This document shows, piece by piece, positions 16,562 through 22,577 of a stretch of 64,000 nucleotides of DNA. The DNA is taken from assembly GCF_001578775.1 (NCBI RefSeq), contig NZ_KQ969062.1:198954-262953 (forward strand). Reading direction: 5' to 3'. This DNA comes from Streptococcus cristatus. GTDB lineage: Bacteria; Bacillota; Bacilli; Lactobacillales; Streptococcaceae. Under the pieces are notes generated by a model. The model searched no databases. It was not told the DNA's origin and was given only the letters and a program-made list of their open reading frames with translations. The position numbers and the translations under genes were made by a program. How positions within the stretch are numbered: the first letter of the stretch is position 1; each line of letters begins with the position of its first letter.

Positions 16562-16690
16562 TGTTTGTGAATAACGGAGTGCTAGGGCTTTCTTTAATCT
16601 TGGACTAGAGACTATTTTCTTTGAAAAAGTTTTGAAATTGCTGCTAATTATTGTTATACTAGATGAAATATGAGACGAGGGAGGATTGAG

Positions 16691-18226
16691 ATGGATCTAG
16701 GCAAGTTTCGTTTGCTGATGTCCAAGTATGGTTTCAGCATCATTATCATGTTATTGGAATTGCTTCTTGTTTTTGCGGCCTTTTTCTATTTTAATCAGTT
16801 GGTGCCTAATTGGTTGTCAGCCCTTGTCATTGTTTCTTTATATATTGGGACTATCTTGGCGATTGTCAATCGGAACATGCCTCCAGAAAGCAAGGTGACT
16901 TGGCTCTTGTTTGCAGTTGTGCCCGTTTTTGGCTTCTTGCTCTATCTGATGATTGGTGAGCGGCGCCTTTCCAAAAAAGAAATTCAGCAGCTGGAAAAAA
17001 TGGACTCAATGAAGTTTCGAGAGGACAACAGCTATGACCTGCGAGTCGAACTCAAGCAGGAAAATAAATCAGCCTTTGGAATTGTCAAGTCTTTGCTGAG
17101 CATGGATCACAATGCCGATGTCTACGATGGCACGGCTTCGCAGTATTTCTCCCTTGGTGAAGAGATGTTTGAGGCCATGCTGGATGATTTGCGCTCAGCC
17201 AAGAAATTCATTTTTCTTGAATTTTATATCATTGATCCAGGTTTGATGTGGAATCGTGTCCTTGAGATTTTGGTAGATAAGGTCCAGCAGGGAGTTGAAG
17301 TCAAGCTGCTCTACGATGACATTGGCTGTATGGCGACCCTTTCAGGAGATTATACAAAAAGGCTGCGCAAGATGGGAATTGATGCCCATAAGTTTAATAA
17401 GGTGATTCCGCGGATGACGGTGGCCTATAATAATCGTGATCACCGCAAGATTTTGGTGGTGGATGGGCAAGTCGGCTATACAGGCGGGATTAATCTGGCT
17501 GACGAGTATATCAACCATATCGTGCGCTTCGGGCATTGGAAAGATGGTGGTGTCCGTCTGGAAGGTCGAGCAGTGAAGGCTTTGACACGTCTTTTCTTGA
17601 TGAATTGGTACATCAATCGCGGGGAAATTACGGATTTTGACCGTTATCATTTTGATAGCCAGCGAGTGGAAGGTAAGGGGCTCTATATTCCTTACGGGAG
17701 CGGGCCCAAGCCGATTTATAAGGAACAGGTGGGCAAGGCTGTCTACCAGAATATCATCAACCAAGCCATCGATTATGTCTATATCACGACTCCTTATTTG
17801 ATTATTGACTATGATTTGACAGAGGATATAAAAAATGCAGCCATGAGAGGGGTGGATGTTCGCATTGTGACGCCGTTTATTCCTGATAAAAAGCTGATTC
17901 AGATAGTCACTCGTGGTGCTTATCCAGACTTGCTGGAGGCTGGTGTTAAGATTTACGAGTACACTCCTGGTTTTATCCACAGTAAGAACGTTATTTCGGA
18001 TGATGAGTTAGCCGTGGTCGGAACCATTAATTTTGACTATCGTAGTCTGGTGCATCATTATGAAAATGCTGTTCTTATGTATCAAACAGAATCAATTGCG
18101 GATATTAAGCAGGATTTTGAAGATTTGTTTGATGTTTCCAAAGAAATTTCTCTTGAAACCCTCCAAAACAGCTGGTACCAGCGTTTACTGAAAGAAATCA
18201 TGCAATTATTTGCTCCGCTACTTTAA
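16691..18226 (+). CDS. cls: Cardiolipin synthase
   Basis: 511 residues from the ATG at 16691, chosen because GGGAGG lies 6 bp upstream; an in-frame ATG at 16670 would include that site. Two N-terminal transmembrane segments (about 11-35 and 40-60), a further hydrophobic stretch near 70-90, and two phospholipase D catalytic motifs: HRKILVVDGQVGYTGG at residue 251 and HSKNVISDDELAVVGT at residue 430. It condenses two phosphatidylglycerols to cardiolipin. The gene ends two bases before a 175-bp repeat that probably also terminates it. Confidence 0.95.
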   Translation: MDLGKFRLLMSKYGFSIIIMLLELLLVFAAFFYFNQLVPNWLSALVIVSLYIGTILAIVNRNMPPESKVTWLLFAVVPVFGFLLYLMIGERRLSKKEIQQLEKMDSMKFREDNSYDLRVELKQENKSAFGIVKSLLSMDHNADVYDGTASQYFSLGEEMFEAMLDDLRSAKKFIFLEFYIIDPGLMWNRVLEILVDKVQQGVEVKLLYDDIGCMATLSGDYTKRLRKMGIDAHKFNKVIPRMTVAYNNRDHRKILVVDGQVGYTGGINLADEYINHIVRFGHWKDGGVRLEGRAVKALTRLFLMNWYINRGEITDFDRYHFDSQRVEGKGLYIPYGSGPKPIYKEQVGKAVYQNIINQAIDYVYITTPYLIIDYDLTEDIKNAAMRGVDVRIVTPFIPDKKLIQIVTRGAYPDLLEAGVKIYEYTPGFIHSKNVISDDELAVVGTINFDYRSLVHHYENAVLMYQTESIADIKQDFEDLFDVSKEISLETLQNSWYQRLLKEIMQLFAPLL

Positions 18227-18227
18227 A

Positions 18228-18402
18228 GAGAGTGGGACAGAAATCGGTAATTCGTTAGAATTCGATTTCGTCGTCCCACCTCCGCACAGTTGAGTAGGGC
18301 TGTAAAAGCTGATGAAATCAGCGTAGTAGAGCCCACTCAACCCCTGCGTCTTGCTTGACAATCCAAAGACAATTGAGAGGCTAGGATTTTTGTCCCAGCC
18401 CC
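18228..18402 (+). repeat. 175-bp three-hairpin repeat, copy 1
   Basis: First of four near-identical 175-bp copies (others at 41805, 53866 reversed and 54835). The ends are imperfect inverted repeats (GAGAGTGGGACA / TGTCCCAGCCTC type). Inside, GTGGGAC...GTCCCAC encloses a hairpin and GTTGAGTAGGGCT...AGCCCACTCAAC a second. It starts two bases after the cls stop and ends in CCCCTTTTT, so it can serve as a terminator. Confidence 0.93.
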
Positions 18403-18477
18403 TTTTTCTGTTTTTTGCTGAGAGGATTTGCTTGAGAAGCTATAAATGACACTTTCTTGCGATGCTCGCCTTTATTT

Positions 18478-18485
18478 TACGAATA
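18478..18485 (+). promoter_or_regulatory. Perfect ComX/SigX box upstream of a small ORF
   Basis: TACGAATA, an exact match to the late-competence consensus, preceded by T-rich sequence (TTTATTT) and followed by GTAAATAGGGG. It lies in an intergenic region, 36 bp before the ATG at 18522. Confidence 0.75.
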
Positions 18486-18521
18486 GTAAATAGGGGACAG
18501 AGAATCAAAGGAGGATTACAG

Positions 18522-18668
18522 ATGGAAATAGCAAAAATAATTTATCGGCTTCCTTGTCCAGAAGAGCGGCTAGTTTACCTAAGATTCCGCGATTTGGAGC
18601 GCTTGGCAAAGAAGAGACAGGAGGAGAAAGGAGGCCAAGATAAGGCTGACAGAAAGAGTGCTTTTTGA
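18522..18668 (+). CDS. Small hypothetical protein, putatively competence-controlled
   Basis: 48 residues from the ATG at 18522, which has a strong AAAGGAGGA ribosome site 5 bp upstream; an open frame from 18462 has no such site and spans the SigX box. The product is highly charged and basic, starting MEIAKIIYRLPCPEERLVYL, with a likely amphipathic helix over about residues 12-35 and a hydrophilic tail. No signal peptide, no membrane segment, no family recognised. The perfect SigX box upstream suggests expression in competence. Its TGA stop forms part of the extended -10 of the next gene. The ORF is short, so coding status rests mainly on the ribosome site and the promoter. Confidence 0.6.
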   Translation: MEIAKIIYRLPCPEERLVYLRFRDLERLAKKRQEEKGGQDKADRKSAF

Positions 18669-18674
18669 TATACT
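18666..18674 (+). promoter_or_regulatory. Extended -10 promoter of the membrane protein gene
   Basis: TGATATACT: TGn plus TATACT, overlapping the stop codon of the small ORF, 30 bp before the ATG at 18704. Confidence 0.55.
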
Positions 18675-18703: not shown

Positions 18704-20260
18704 ATGAATGATAGAAACCAACAGGAAAACGTGGAAATTTTAGTATCTATGTCCGCAGAAACCTGGCAAAATACGAGTGAGAGACGGCGGTTAGAGAAAA
18801 TAATTGAGCCAGTTCCTTCCTTACAACTATTTTTTTGGAGTATCTTGGTCAGTTTGACCAGTGTGGTCAATCCTCTACTAACCAACTTAGCCACCAATTT
18901 GCAATCGCAAAATCTGTATGCTGGCTGGGCCTTGACTCAGGGAGAAGTCGCCTATGCAAATATTTATGGAACCAGCGGTCTTCTCTACTATTTGGTAAGC
19001 TGGTTGGGGAATTTATTTTTGGGTCAGCTATTGTTTTTACTTTTCCAAGTAGTGGCTTTGACCTTGGCAGGAATATATCTCTTCCAGACAATTTCACAAA
19101 TAACGGTTAGAAGTGGTCTAGCTCGCCAGATTACAATCCTGTTCTATTTGTTTGTACTGACACTGGGATTTGGCGGAACTTATTCTATTATTTTTGCTTT
19201 CCCATTTATCTTTCGGAGTTTGTACCATCTCGTGAAGTACTTACAAGGGCGTGTCCGCGATGAGTCTTTTATTCGTTTTGGGATGGTTGGAGCCTTGGCT
19301 TTTCTAATCGAGCCAGCTTTTAGTCTTCTCTTTTACTCATTGACGACGCTGTTTTTGCTTCTGTACAATATCGCTGACAAGCGAAAAGCGCGTGGTTTTT
19401 ATCAGTTGTTAGCAGGTTTATTAGGTTTTTCTTTAGTCTTTTATCCACTGGGCTACTATACAGTTTTGAATGGTTCTTTTGGTGTAGCGATTAGCCAAGC
19501 TACTTATGTTCTAGAGGCTTTTCGTCTCAATGGCAACTATATATTAGATCATTCGCTCTATTATGGTTTGCTTTTCCTAGGATTAGGTTTTGCGACAGCG
19601 TTGATGACGGCTTTTGCTTTCAAAGAAGAACCAACTGCTGCACGTGGTATGCGCTTTATTGGGCTACTAGGTCTTCCTATCAGCTTTATTGGAGTTCTAG
19701 GCTTGCCAGAGAAGGGCGCTTATCAATTGTTGACAACTCTGCCTTTTGCCTTGCTGTTACTGGCCTTGTGGCTGGATACAAGTGGAGACAGGGATGGTCA
19801 TGAAAGACGCCACCGTAAGCCTACCAAGACTTCTAGCTGGAATCGTTATTTGGGCAGGCAACTTTTTTTGCCTTTGCTTGCGATGTTTTATCTCGTAGCT
19901 TATCCGTTAGTAAATGAGTATATTCTATCCAATGGAGTTTCAGCAGAGAGAAATCTGGCTGCCCAACATATTCGTGAAAACAGCACTAGCAAGGATAGCA
20001 TTTATGCTTGGGACAATACAGCTAGCCTCTATAAAAAAGCGCAGCGTTTATCAGCCGTTTCTCTACTGAGTCCGTCGCTTTATACAGGAACGGAGGAAAA
20101 TCGCATTTTCTTGCGTAATGCTTTAAATGAGGCAAGTCCAAAGTTTATCTTAGTCAATAAAGATGTGAAACTCTTTTCGGATGTGAAAAAGAAAATTTCT
20201 CAAGATTATGAAGAAGTGAACCTAAAACTCAATCACTTCAAGCTTTATCAAATCAAGTAA
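18704..20260 (+). CDS. Polytopic membrane protein of unknown function
   Basis: 518 residues from the ATG at 18704 (AAGGAGAAC upstream). A polar N-terminus of about 45 residues is followed by some 10-11 transmembrane segments, with an extracytoplasmic-looking C-terminal domain (about 430-518). The loop NLYAGWALTQGEVAYANIYGTSGLLYY after the first transmembrane segment resembles the first external loop of GT-C glycosyltransferase or mannosyltransferase-type proteins (PMT/ArnT-like). That assignment is tentative because no catalytic DE/DD motif stands out. It is monocistronic, between the small ORF and nrdD. Confidence 0.75.
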   Translation: MNDRNQQENVEILVSMSAETWQNTSERRRLEKIIEPVPSLQLFFWSILVSLTSVVNPLLTNLATNLQSQNLYAGWALTQGEVAYANIYGTSGLLYYLVSWLGNLFLGQLLFLLFQVVALTLAGIYLFQTISQITVRSGLARQITILFYLFVLTLGFGGTYSIIFAFPFIFRSLYHLVKYLQGRVRDESFIRFGMVGALAFLIEPAFSLLFYSLTTLFLLLYNIADKRKARGFYQLLAGLLGFSLVFYPLGYYTVLNGSFGVAISQATYVLEAFRLNGNYILDHSLYYGLLFLGLGFATALMTAFAFKEEPTAARGMRFIGLLGLPISFIGVLGLPEKGAYQLLTTLPFALLLLALWLDTSGDRDGHERRHRKPTKTSSWNRYLGRQLFLPLLAMFYLVAYPLVNEYILSNGVSAERNLAAQHIRENSTSKDSIYAWDNTASLYKKAQRLSAVSLLSPSLYTGTEENRIFLRNALNEASPKFILVNKDVKLFSDVKKKISQDYEEVNLKLNHFKLYQIK

Positions 20261-20342: not shown

Positions 20343-20381
20343 GTTTGGTAGATGATTAATTGAGAAGAGGAAGTGTTTGTG

Positions 20382-22577
20382 ATGATTTTAAGAGAAGCAA
20401 AATTTGATACAGCGCCTACCATCTACGTTGAGAAGCGAGACGGCCGGAGAGTAGCTTTTGATGTTGCGAAGATTTACAAGGCTATGGTGCGGGCTGCGCA
20501 GGAAGTCGGCCCTCTGACGCCGATGCTGGAAGCCAAGCTTGAAACGATTACAGACCGTGTTGTGGCAGAAATCAGCAGTCGCTTCGCTAAGTATGTCAAA
20601 ATCTATGAGATTCAGAACATCGTTGAGCATGAGCTTTTGAATGCCAAGGAGTATGCCATTGCAGAGAGCTACATTACTTACCGCACCCAGCGGGATTTTG
20701 AGCGCTCAAAAGCGACGGACATCAACTTTACCATCGACAAGCTCCTCAACAAGGACCAGACGGTAGTCAATGAAAATGCCAATAAAGACAGCGATGTCTT
20801 TAATACCCAGCGCGATCTGACAGCGGGGATTGTCGGTAAGTCCATTGGACTGAAAATGCTGCCGCCCCATGTGGCCAATGCACATCAAAAAGGCGATATT
20901 CATTACCACGATCTGGACTACAGTCCCTATACACCGATGACCAACTGCTGCCTGATTGACTTTGCGGGGATGCTGAAGAATGGCTTTAAGATCGGCAATG
21001 CTGAAGTGGAAAGTCCCAAGTCTATCCAGACTGCGACAGCTCAGATTTCGCAAATCATCGCTAATGTAGCGTCAAGCCAGTACGGTGGCTGTTCGGCCGA
21101 CCGGATTGATGAGGTTTTGGCGCCTTATGCTGCGCTGAATTATCAAAAACATCTGCGGGATGCGGAGCACTGGGTCCTGGAGGATAAGCGCGAGGACTAT
21201 GCCTGGGAAAAGACCAAAAAGGATATCTATGATGCCATGCAGTCCTTGGAATATGAGATCAATACCCTCTTTACATCCAACGGTCAGACGCCTTTCACAT
21301 CGCTGGGATTTGGCCTGGGGACCAATCGCTTTGAGCGGGAGATTCAAAAGGCCGTTCTCAATATCCGCATCAAGGGGCTGGGATCCGAGCACCGCACAGC
21401 CATTTTCCCCAAGCTGATCTTTACCCTCAAGCGCGGCCTGAACTTAGAGCCCGGCACACCGAACTATGATATTAAAGAGCTGGCTTTGGAATGCGCCACC
21501 AAGCGGATGTATCCGGATGTGCTGTCCTATGACAAGATTATTGACCTGACCGGCTCCTTCAAGGTGCCCATGGGCTGCCGTTCCTTCCTGCAGGGCTGGA
21601 AGGACGAAAATGGGGACGAAGTCAACTCCGGCCGCATGAATCTGGGGGTTGTCACGGTTAATCTGCCGCGGATTGCCTTGGAGTCTGAGGGCGACCTTGC
21701 CAAGTTCTGGGAAATCTTTAATGAGCGCATGAATATCGCCGAAGATGCGCTGGTCTATCGGGTGGAGCGGACTAAGGAAGCCAGTCCGGCCAATGCGCCT
21801 ATTCTCTACCAATATGGGGCCTTCGGCCGGCGCTTGGGCAAGTACGATCAGGTTGACCAGCTCTTTACCCACCGCCGAGCCACCGTTTCTCTGGGCTACA
21901 TCGGTCTCTATGAAGTAGCTGCAGTCTTCTATGGCAGCGACTGGGAAAAAAATCCAGCAGCCAAGGAATTTACCGTTTCGATTGTCAAGGATATGAAGCG
22001 GCGCGTGGAAGAATGGTCTGAACAGTACGACTATCACTTCTCTGTCTATTCAACACCGTCTGAGAGTCTGACAGACCGTTTCTGCCGGCTGGATACGGAG
22101 AAGTTTGGTGTCATTGAGGATATTACTGACAAGGAGTACTATACCAATTCTTTCCACTACGATGTGCGCAAGAATCCGACGCCCTTTGAAAAGCTGGACT
22201 TTGAAAAGGTTTATCCAGAGGCCGGTGCTTCCGGCGGTTTTATCCACTACTGTGAATATCCGGTCCTGCAGCAGAATCCCAAAGCCCTAGAAGCTGTATG
22301 GGACTATGCTTACGACCGGGTCGGCTATCTGGGGACCAATACACCGATTGACCGCTGCTATCAGTGTGATTTTGAAGGAGATTTCACGCCGACTGAGCGG
22401 GGCTTCACCTGCCCTAACTGCGGCAACAGCGACCCCAAGACGGTAGATGTGGTCAAGCGGACCTGCGGCTATCTGGGCAATCCTCAGGCTCGGCCTATGG
22501 TCAAGGGCCGTCACAAGGAAATATCGGCCCGGGTTAAGCATATGAACGGTTCGACCATTAAGTATGAAGGAAATTAA
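20382..22577 (+). CDS. nrdD: Anaerobic ribonucleoside-triphosphate reductase, large subunit
   Basis: 731 residues. N-terminal ATP-cone (about 12-105; VEKRDGRRVAFDVAKIYKAM), a catalytic barrel with the substrate-site cysteines, a C-terminal zinc site (CYQCDFEGDF...CPNCG) and the glycyl-radical loop RTCGYLGNPQARP near the end. It makes dNTPs from NTPs without oxygen once NrdG has put the radical on the glycine. In-frame GTG codons lie at 20373 and 20379; the ATG at 20382 is preferred, with GAGG 11 bp upstream. Heads the operon nrdD, small ORF, two GNATs, nrdG, under NrdR boxes. Confidence 0.97.
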   Translation: MILREAKFDTAPTIYVEKRDGRRVAFDVAKIYKAMVRAAQEVGPLTPMLEAKLETITDRVVAEISSRFAKYVKIYEIQNIVEHELLNAKEYAIAESYITYRTQRDFERSKATDINFTIDKLLNKDQTVVNENANKDSDVFNTQRDLTAGIVGKSIGLKMLPPHVANAHQKGDIHYHDLDYSPYTPMTNCCLIDFAGMLKNGFKIGNAEVESPKSIQTATAQISQIIANVASSQYGGCSADRIDEVLAPYAALNYQKHLRDAEHWVLEDKREDYAWEKTKKDIYDAMQSLEYEINTLFTSNGQTPFTSLGFGLGTNRFEREIQKAVLNIRIKGLGSEHRTAIFPKLIFTLKRGLNLEPGTPNYDIKELALECATKRMYPDVLSYDKIIDLTGSFKVPMGCRSFLQGWKDENGDEVNSGRMNLGVVTVNLPRIALESEGDLAKFWEIFNERMNIAEDALVYRVERTKEASPANAPILYQYGAFGRRLGKYDQVDQLFTHRRATVSLGYIGLYEVAAVFYGSDWEKNPAAKEFTVSIVKDMKRRVEEWSEQYDYHFSVYSTPSESLTDRFCRLDTEKFGVIEDITDKEYYTNSFHYDVRKNPTPFEKLDFEKVYPEAGASGGFIHYCEYPVLQQNPKALEAVWDYAYDRVGYLGTNTPIDRCYQCDFEGDFTPTERGFTCPNCGNSDPKTVDVVKRTCGYLGNPQARPMVKGRHKEISARVKHMNGSTIKYEGN

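Follow-up and report, generated by a model that had tools for sequence, protein, structure and literature searches.

A small open reading frame ahead of ccs4 in the Streptococcus cristatus group is very probably a SigX-controlled late-competence gene kept by most of the genus

An unannotated gene of 46 amino acids located 5' of ccs4 has been described as induced in two Streptococcus mitis strains, with a SigX (ComX) box arranged as TTT-TACGAATA-19-ATG in Table 4 of the same work, and induced orthologues of unknown role have been named in S. sanguinis (SSA_2233), S. mutans (SMU.2076) and S. pneumoniae (SPR_0181, orf47) (PMC6001120). In the pneumococcus, SPV_2121 is listed directly before SPV_0186 among the ComX operons (Table 3 of PMC6560143), with log2 fold changes of 4.6, 4.4 and 0.6 at 3, 10 and 20 min for SPV_2121 and of 2.4, 2.3 and 0.1 at the same times for SPV_0186, the latter being marked 'Secondary', a label that according to the authors stands for read-through or an additional start site. 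Judging by its position in this table, SPV_2121 is probably the pneumococcal orthologue of the small open reading frame (ORF) treated here. Equally, SMU.2076c has been reported to be 4.2-fold up, yet has been placed outside the core SigX regulon, which comprises the genes induced in more than four species, and SSA.2233 has been stated not to be homologous to SMU.2076 (PMC5069739). For the ccs4 product, a membrane protein related to meningitis, no known motif has been reported and 8-10 membrane passes are predicted, and a ccs4 deletion is cited as having no effect on transformation (PMC6177246). An SSA_2233 mutant of S. sanguinis is among the longer-chain mutants of another work, SSA_2233 being either the small ORF or ccs4 (PMC3919539). 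The accessible text of articles on S. suis (PMC5167698) and S. dysgalactiae (PMC11288034) does not name the small gene, and that of an article on Lactococcus (PMC11244767) offers no ComX box for comparison; the SMU_2076 in the accessible text of PMC12323655, given as a phage integrase in connection with S. gordonii, is apparently something else and was set aside.

The window, i.e. the whole stretch of 64,000 nucleotides analysed here, comes from a genome (G000) that can be placed in the S. cristatus group, since its ccs4 protein is closest, among named records, to those of Streptococcus sp. Marseille-P6264 and five S. cristatus strains (94-97% identity). The features of the locus are as follows.

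16670-18226, + strand: cardiolipin synthase gene (cls), upstream context (NCBIfam TIGR04265 above cut-off).
18464-18485, + strand: putative SigX (ComX) promoter, a T-rich stretch with the -10 box TACGAATA (box at 18478-18485).
18493, + strand: expected transcription start, positioned according to the spacing in the ComX consensus of the pneumococcus (PMC6560143).
18507-18515, + strand: ribosome binding site AAAGGAGGA, 6 nt 5' of the start codon.
18522-18668, + strand: small ORF of 48 codons, ATG at 18522 and stop codon TGA at 18666-18668, supported by homology, synteny and coding selection in the mitis group.
18646-18674, + strand: candidate housekeeping-type promoter of ccs4, -35 CTGACA, 17-nt spacer and extended -10 TGATATACT.
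18704-20260, + strand: ccs4 orthologue, next gene 3' of the small ORF, a 518-aa membrane protein with a predicted GT-C glycosyltransferase fold.
20373-22577, + strand: gene which we take to be nrdD, downstream context and synteny anchor, its first 309 codons being matched in 283 of 284 genus genomes.

The preliminary description of this DNA had proposed a SigX box with a ribosome site ahead of an ORF of 48 residues without recognised family, and in all of this it was borne out: box and ribosome site lie where they had been placed and with the letters given, and the product, MEIAKIIYRLPCPEERLVYLRFRDLERLAKKRQEEKGGQDKADRKSAF, has no Pfam or NCBIfam match at E<=1. The box is a cin-box of the form T[ACGT]CGAATA in the position of a -10 element 5' of the ORF, with CTTTATTT 5' of it, and the leader from 18493 to 18530 has no notable structure (MFE -0.4 kcal/mol, z 0.14). 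An alternative ATG at 18462 opens a longer frame of 68 aa; the start has been placed at 18522 because that longer frame contains the box and because five of eight close relatives (identity at least 81%) are open for exactly 48 aa only. Between cls and the box lies, in addition, an element of 181 bases (18228-18408) that recurs in at least 39 other places of the genome at 94-98% identity (40 matches scored among 62 candidates).

By itself, the 8-mer TACGAATA is no more than chance, as the window contains two copies where 1.32 are expected, 39 of 100 shuffles reach two, and genome-wide it is rarer than its reversed control (57 versus 114). The likeness to the boxes of cinA and comGA that had been pointed out does not extend to the exact 8-mer, which reads TCCGAATA and TGCGAATA at these genes, but does hold for a longer string, CGAATAGTAA, common to all three sites. 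This string occurs three times in the window against 0.13 expected (none of 100 shuffles reaches three) and is not clearly enriched genome-wide, with seven occurrences versus five of the reversed control; of the four sites outside the window, one is followed by a 172-aa ORF 30 nt on and one by a 121-aa ORF 125 nt on, and the remaining two have no ORF within 200 nt. Equally, the T-rich surroundings 5' and A-rich surroundings 3' of the box were judged on the ComX consensus of the pneumococcus from PMC6560143, which has 24 informative positions; the small-ORF site scores 18, cinA 19 and comGA 22, and unrelated sites score 19-21. Since one genome alone would not settle the site, the case has been built on comparison across species.

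As a single query, the window protein matches 23 of 284 genus genomes and was hence replaced by a profile, A1, derived from an alignment of 57 members including the window ORF (consensus LTxEExxFxxxYxxxxxHRFREIExYAxLxxKLxK). At E<=0.01 this profile matches 215 of the 284 Streptococcus genomes (208 of 276 of good quality), several matches having internal stops, and leaves 69 without a match; the window genome's E value of 2.6e-15 is that of a copy contained in the profile. A profile seeded without the window's clade ranks the ORF first in the 5.5-kb locus of all 15 relatives (L033-L047), at weak scores of 3.7-8.7 bits and E values of 0.55-24. Beyond S. cristatus, S. sinensis, S. sanguinis and the nearest groups, identity of the window ORF to members falls to 5-30%, and what would tie the window's clade to the distant members is the core FR[DE][IL]E together with synteny. 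No Pfam, NCBIfam or PHROG family is found consistently across the 57 members, and the four weak matches of a PDB sequence search, the best to a collagenase pro-peptide at E 0.36, were discarded. In a family-wide sample 188 of 295 genomes match A1, five of them outside Streptococcus; two genomes of one other genus do so at E 7e-10 and 3e-9, and the matches in three further genera (G287, G307 and G329), which are included in the count, were rejected as chance (E 0.002-0.009, internal stops in all three).

With nrdD as anchor, 120 places were taken from the 283 of 284 matching genomes (one, L133, stops at the contig end); ccs4 is matched in 113 of these and the small ORF lies ahead of it in 81, where it is the best-scoring frame of the locus in every case. 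Among named records with ccs4 (best 80 of 105), 51 carry the small ORF, 47 of these together with the box, and S. parasanguinis, S. australis and S. xiaochunlingii are among the 29 records without it, the 80 including none titled S. pneumoniae; named S. pseudopneumoniae and S. oralis records have the small ORF directly ahead of ccs4. By homology and place, the small ORF is orthologous to the uncharacterised gene already known from 5' of ccs4 and hence not a new gene. The 'possible new late-competence gene' of the preliminary description can be kept as to late competence, with the box conserved across the genus, and has to be given up as to novelty, the gene having been described already (PMC6001120).

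A box of the form NNCGAATR within 60 nt is present in 75 of the 81 ORF loci versus 314 of 15,471 control windows (2.0%). As 49 seed loci had been chosen for having the box, 75 of 81 is inflated, and the fair counts are those of profile-found loci not chosen for a box, 26 of 32, 22 of 25 and 24 of 30 (sets that partly share genomes). Most of the six ORF loci without a strict box are one letter off (TTCGAATT, TACGGATA, TACAAATA, TGTGAATA), and a clade with TTCGAATT in its place recurs. A comparison across relatives, of the kind that had been suggested as a check, finds the box kept ahead of the ORF genus-wide. Among 32 loci with ccs4 in which no ORF was found, a box-like string is present in four, and the sole TACGAATA among them, in L138, stands ahead of an ORF copy broken by a stop; one locus counted as ORF-less, L130, has by eye an ORF-like stretch, RTFRELEDLAR. 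Broken copies with an intact SigX box 5' of them have been observed in three genomes (L138/L207 in G177, L194 in G027 and L036 in G025), with internal stops in two and an altered C-terminal frame in the third.

Where the small ORF and ccs4 part, the box stays with the ORF. In G083 the ORF with TTCGAATA is found at C1:745613, without a ccs4 match within 1.5 kb and 83 kb from the ccs4-nrdD pair, where ccs4 lies beside nrdD (C1:661637) without a box. The neighbourhood of the two genes is nevertheless close: ccs4 is next in 81 of 81 nrdD-anchored ORF loci, a result that the anchor favours, and in 24 of 25 profile-chosen genus loci. S. suis has ORF and ccs4 together at another place, with boxes such as TGCGAATA and with the ORF in eight of ten named records, and G223, in which nrdD was not found, equally keeps the ORF-ccs4 pair. 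Across these genomes the SigX box tracks the small ORF rather than ccs4. A side aspect of S. suis-like and related loci (L186, L187, L195, L197-L202, L204 and L205) is a start codon that follows the SigX box at a distance of only 7 nt (see CGAATAAATAGGTATG), and the competence mRNA of the small gene would therefore be leaderless or nearly so.

The second genus keeps the small ORF in two genomes, G305 and G321 (L322 and L331 in the series L306-L335), in neither of which ccs4 was found at E<=1e-3. The small-ORF box reads TTCGTATG or TACGTATA there, within a promoter TTTTTTCGTATG or TTTTTACGTATA, and the comGA box of these genomes is TTCGTATA, within TTTTTTCGTATA. The pattern TTTTTNCGTATR is enriched in both genomes, with 18 versus 5 and 12 versus 4 occurrences of the reversed pattern, against 3 versus 3 in the window's genome. 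Of the 30 TTTTTNCGTATR sites in the two genomes, 27 were viewed as loci, and at 17 of these an ORF of 30 aa or more is found, together with a ribosome-like site, within about 100 nt; the two sites of the small ORF itself do not count among the 17, its ATG being only 7 nt past the box. Ten of the 17 were picked for a family scan, and eight turned out to be comEA, radC, dprA, dut, comGA, recX, ssb and recA; the scan returned no family for the other two, one of which is presumably coiA by its looks. This second genus, which belongs to the same family, appears to use TTTTTNCGTATR in place of TTTTTNCGAATR as SigX box. Because the box of the small ORF matches the changed form of the com genes and ccs4 was not found, it is these two genomes that argue most strongly for a small ORF under SigX control in its own right.

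Codon-level evidence differs between groups. For 21 mitis-type sequences (codons 1-38), summing over all (non-independent) pairs gives a dN/dS of 0.33 in frame versus 2.05 and 1.18 in the shifted frames, and two mitis-type subgroups give 0.28 and 0.24 versus 1.05-1.76 shifted; the final codons, which harbour a promoter, were excluded for that reason. These values argue for codon-level selection on the ORF in the mitis group. In the window's own clade (eight sequences), dN/dS is 0.38 in frame, but 0.24 in frame +1, and with frame +1 lower this clade does not decide the matter. Conservation at codon level, asked of the ORF by the preliminary description, has accordingly been found in the mitis group, and the combination named there as speaking against the gene, loss of the box in close relatives along with an ORF not conserved at codon level, is not what the sequences contain.

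The candidate promoter within the last codons, CTGACA-17-TATACT with TG before the -10 at 18646-18674, is a strong one of the extended -10 type; its -35 falls inside the codons for KADR, and its TG comes from the stop codon TGA. A promoter with at least 9 of 12 letters and TG lies within 60 nt of the ORF stop in 76 of 81 loci versus 4.3% of 1,620 control windows, and a similar promoter is seen by eye before ccs4 in many of the ORF-less loci inspected. The conserved C-terminal AD or KLT residues can therefore be read as a constraint on DNA, so that part of the C-terminal conservation of the small ORF is that of promoter DNA; KADR, QAD and KLT were dropped as a protein motif, as their codons hold the -35 hexamer (CTGACA or TTGACT), and the ORF copies of the other genus are without these residues. 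A promoter of its own for ccs4 fits the 'Secondary' label of SPV_0186 (PMC6560143).

The ccs4 protein was modelled with a pLDDT of 86 and a pTM of 0.87, and the model resembles Pmt1-Pmt2 (6p25; Z 23.6, rmsd 4.2, 357 aligned) and ArnT (5f15; Z 20.4, rmsd 5.0, 430 aligned), with an oligosaccharyltransferase as best Foldseek match (E 6.6e-6); a GT-C glycosyltransferase fold is predicted. An acidic residue in the first outer loop is a usual feature of GT-C proteins. At this position, chosen by eye, the window protein has N and others have D, N, Q, H, S or E, and ccs4 may be inactive in some groups because the acidic position is not conserved. The structure model of the microprotein is weak (pLDDT 72, pTM 0.36), with residues 21-30 best (mean pLDDT 87) and a helix at 22-36; its net charge is +4, within a family mean of +3.1 and a range of -3 to +9. 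Two glycines at residues 37-38 are unconserved even in close relatives, and no transporter or immunity gene is present among the immediate neighbours cls, ccs4 and nrdD, so that the features of a double-glycine bacteriocin precursor, a conserved GG leader and a neighbouring transporter or immunity gene, are absent from this locus. As there is no conserved leader, neighbouring transporter or known motif, a cytosolic helical microprotein that probably binds a partner in competent cells is the favoured reading, partner binding being inferred on account of the weak model.

Box, ORF, family, synteny, the linkage of box and ORF, codon selection in the mitis group and the box variant of the other genus have been computed here; induction of the small gene is taken from papers on its orthologues (PMC6001120, PMC6560143, PMC5069739) and would apply to S. 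cristatus by analogy. Were the SigX site instead to serve ccs4, with the small ORF as a passenger or as a uORF or leader setting ccs4 translation, the constant position of ccs4 behind the ORF in the anchored and profile-chosen loci, at the other place in S. suis and in G223 would find an explanation, as would the induction of ccs4 in S. mitis and the pneumococcus (PMC6001120, PMC6560143). Such a role is unlikely, since ccs4 stays and the box is gone where the ORF is missing (32 loci, four with a box-like string), since ORF and box occur without adjoining ccs4 in G083, G305 and G321 and since selection in the mitis group acts, as far as the substitutions indicate, at the protein level; equally, a leader or attenuator is thought unlikely with so little structure in the transcript. 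That the product might be a secreted signal or bacteriocin-like peptide of competence is suggested by bacteriocin genes such as cibAB among the SigX regulon members (PMC6560143) and by a small, basic protein with two adjacent glycines. This we consider very unlikely, as these glycines are not conserved in close relatives, as transporter and immunity genes are lacking next to it and as the conserved part of the protein is the very segment that a leader cut would remove.

A chance box ahead of a spurious ORF is what the statistics of the single genome would allow for, with the 8-mer at chance level, CGAATAGTAA not clearly enriched genome-wide and an ordinary consensus score; given the conservation of box and ORF throughout the genus, coding selection in the mitis group and a matching box variant in another genus, it is scarcely credible. 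The small ORF is very probably a SigX (ComX) late-competence gene, and we hold it highly likely that the locus represents, in the S. cristatus group, the orf47 orthologue, a microprotein gene controlled by SigX, with ccs4 induced by read-through. The wider proposal that the gene is an ancestral SigX member of the Streptococcaceae, with a link to ccs4 that is not obligatory, that it encodes a trans-acting regulatory adaptor and that the 'ccs4' SigX site is in truth its promoter, ccs4 receiving read-through only, has in our estimation an even chance.

For the SigX-controlled microprotein gene, the following course can be envisaged. In competent cells, SigX-RNA polymerase would use TACGAATA (18478-18485) and start at about 18493, yielding a short mRNA leader with a strong ribosome site from which the 48-aa protein would be translated. 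The transcript might continue into ccs4 in S. cristatus, on top of transcription from the housekeeping promoter of ccs4, so that the small protein would be a SigX-regulated product in its own right and ccs4 induction a matter of read-through. The microprotein may be soluble and cytosolic and consist of a helical segment at its N-terminus and an amphipathic second helix that bears the conserved core xFR[DE][IL]E, the face of which could dock on a partner protein and tune the physiology of competent cells; this picture of a soluble two-helix protein docking on a partner is tentative, and we would put it slightly below even. As the gene is absent from whole clades, the microprotein is unlikely to be a necessary part of DNA uptake.

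A protein of 40-48 aa without assigned role, kept behind a SigX box by most of the genus and behind its own form of the box by a second genus, recommends itself, through this conservation, for direct testing in competent cells. Furthermore, results on ccs4 need to be re-read, as it is the small ORF that the 'ccs4' SigX site tracks. Deletion of the whole ORF could silence ccs4 too, because the last codons of the ORF carry the housekeeping promoter of ccs4, and constructs that disturb the junction of ORF and ccs4 may mix both effects.

Among described systems, orf47 (spr0181), the 46-aa gene of S. mitis and SMU.2076c share with the present ORF the synteny ahead of ccs4 and, at about 46-47 aa versus 48 aa here, its size, and the S. 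mitis gene has the same SigX box (PMC6001120). The distance from box to ATG is 36 nt in the window versus about 19-20 nt in most mitis-type loci, and the N-terminal third of the window ORF has strongly diverged from the mitis-type gene. ccs4 itself (SP_0200; SPV_0186 by its place in the table) has its orthologue in the window, yet its presence does not track the SigX box. The core SigX regulon of Khan et al. 2016 (PMC5069739) shares the type of box and has SMU.2076c in its induced list; the core set excludes the gene, 'possibly SMU.2076' being counted among those not induced in other species. Printed induction covers S. mitis, S. pneumoniae and S. mutans, with S. sanguinis depending on the identity of SSA_2233, and the family described here suggests that a gene so small, divergent and often unannotated may have been missed. 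The accessible print on orf47 describes no genus-wide family, unlike the present analysis; searches of open-licence literature brought up neither such a family nor a box linked to the ORF apart from ccs4, nor the agreement in box form within a second genus. In manner of working only, with no sequence relationship claimed, the small ORF can be compared with the Bacillus microproteins ComS, Sda and MciZ, which at about 40-50 aa each bind a partner.
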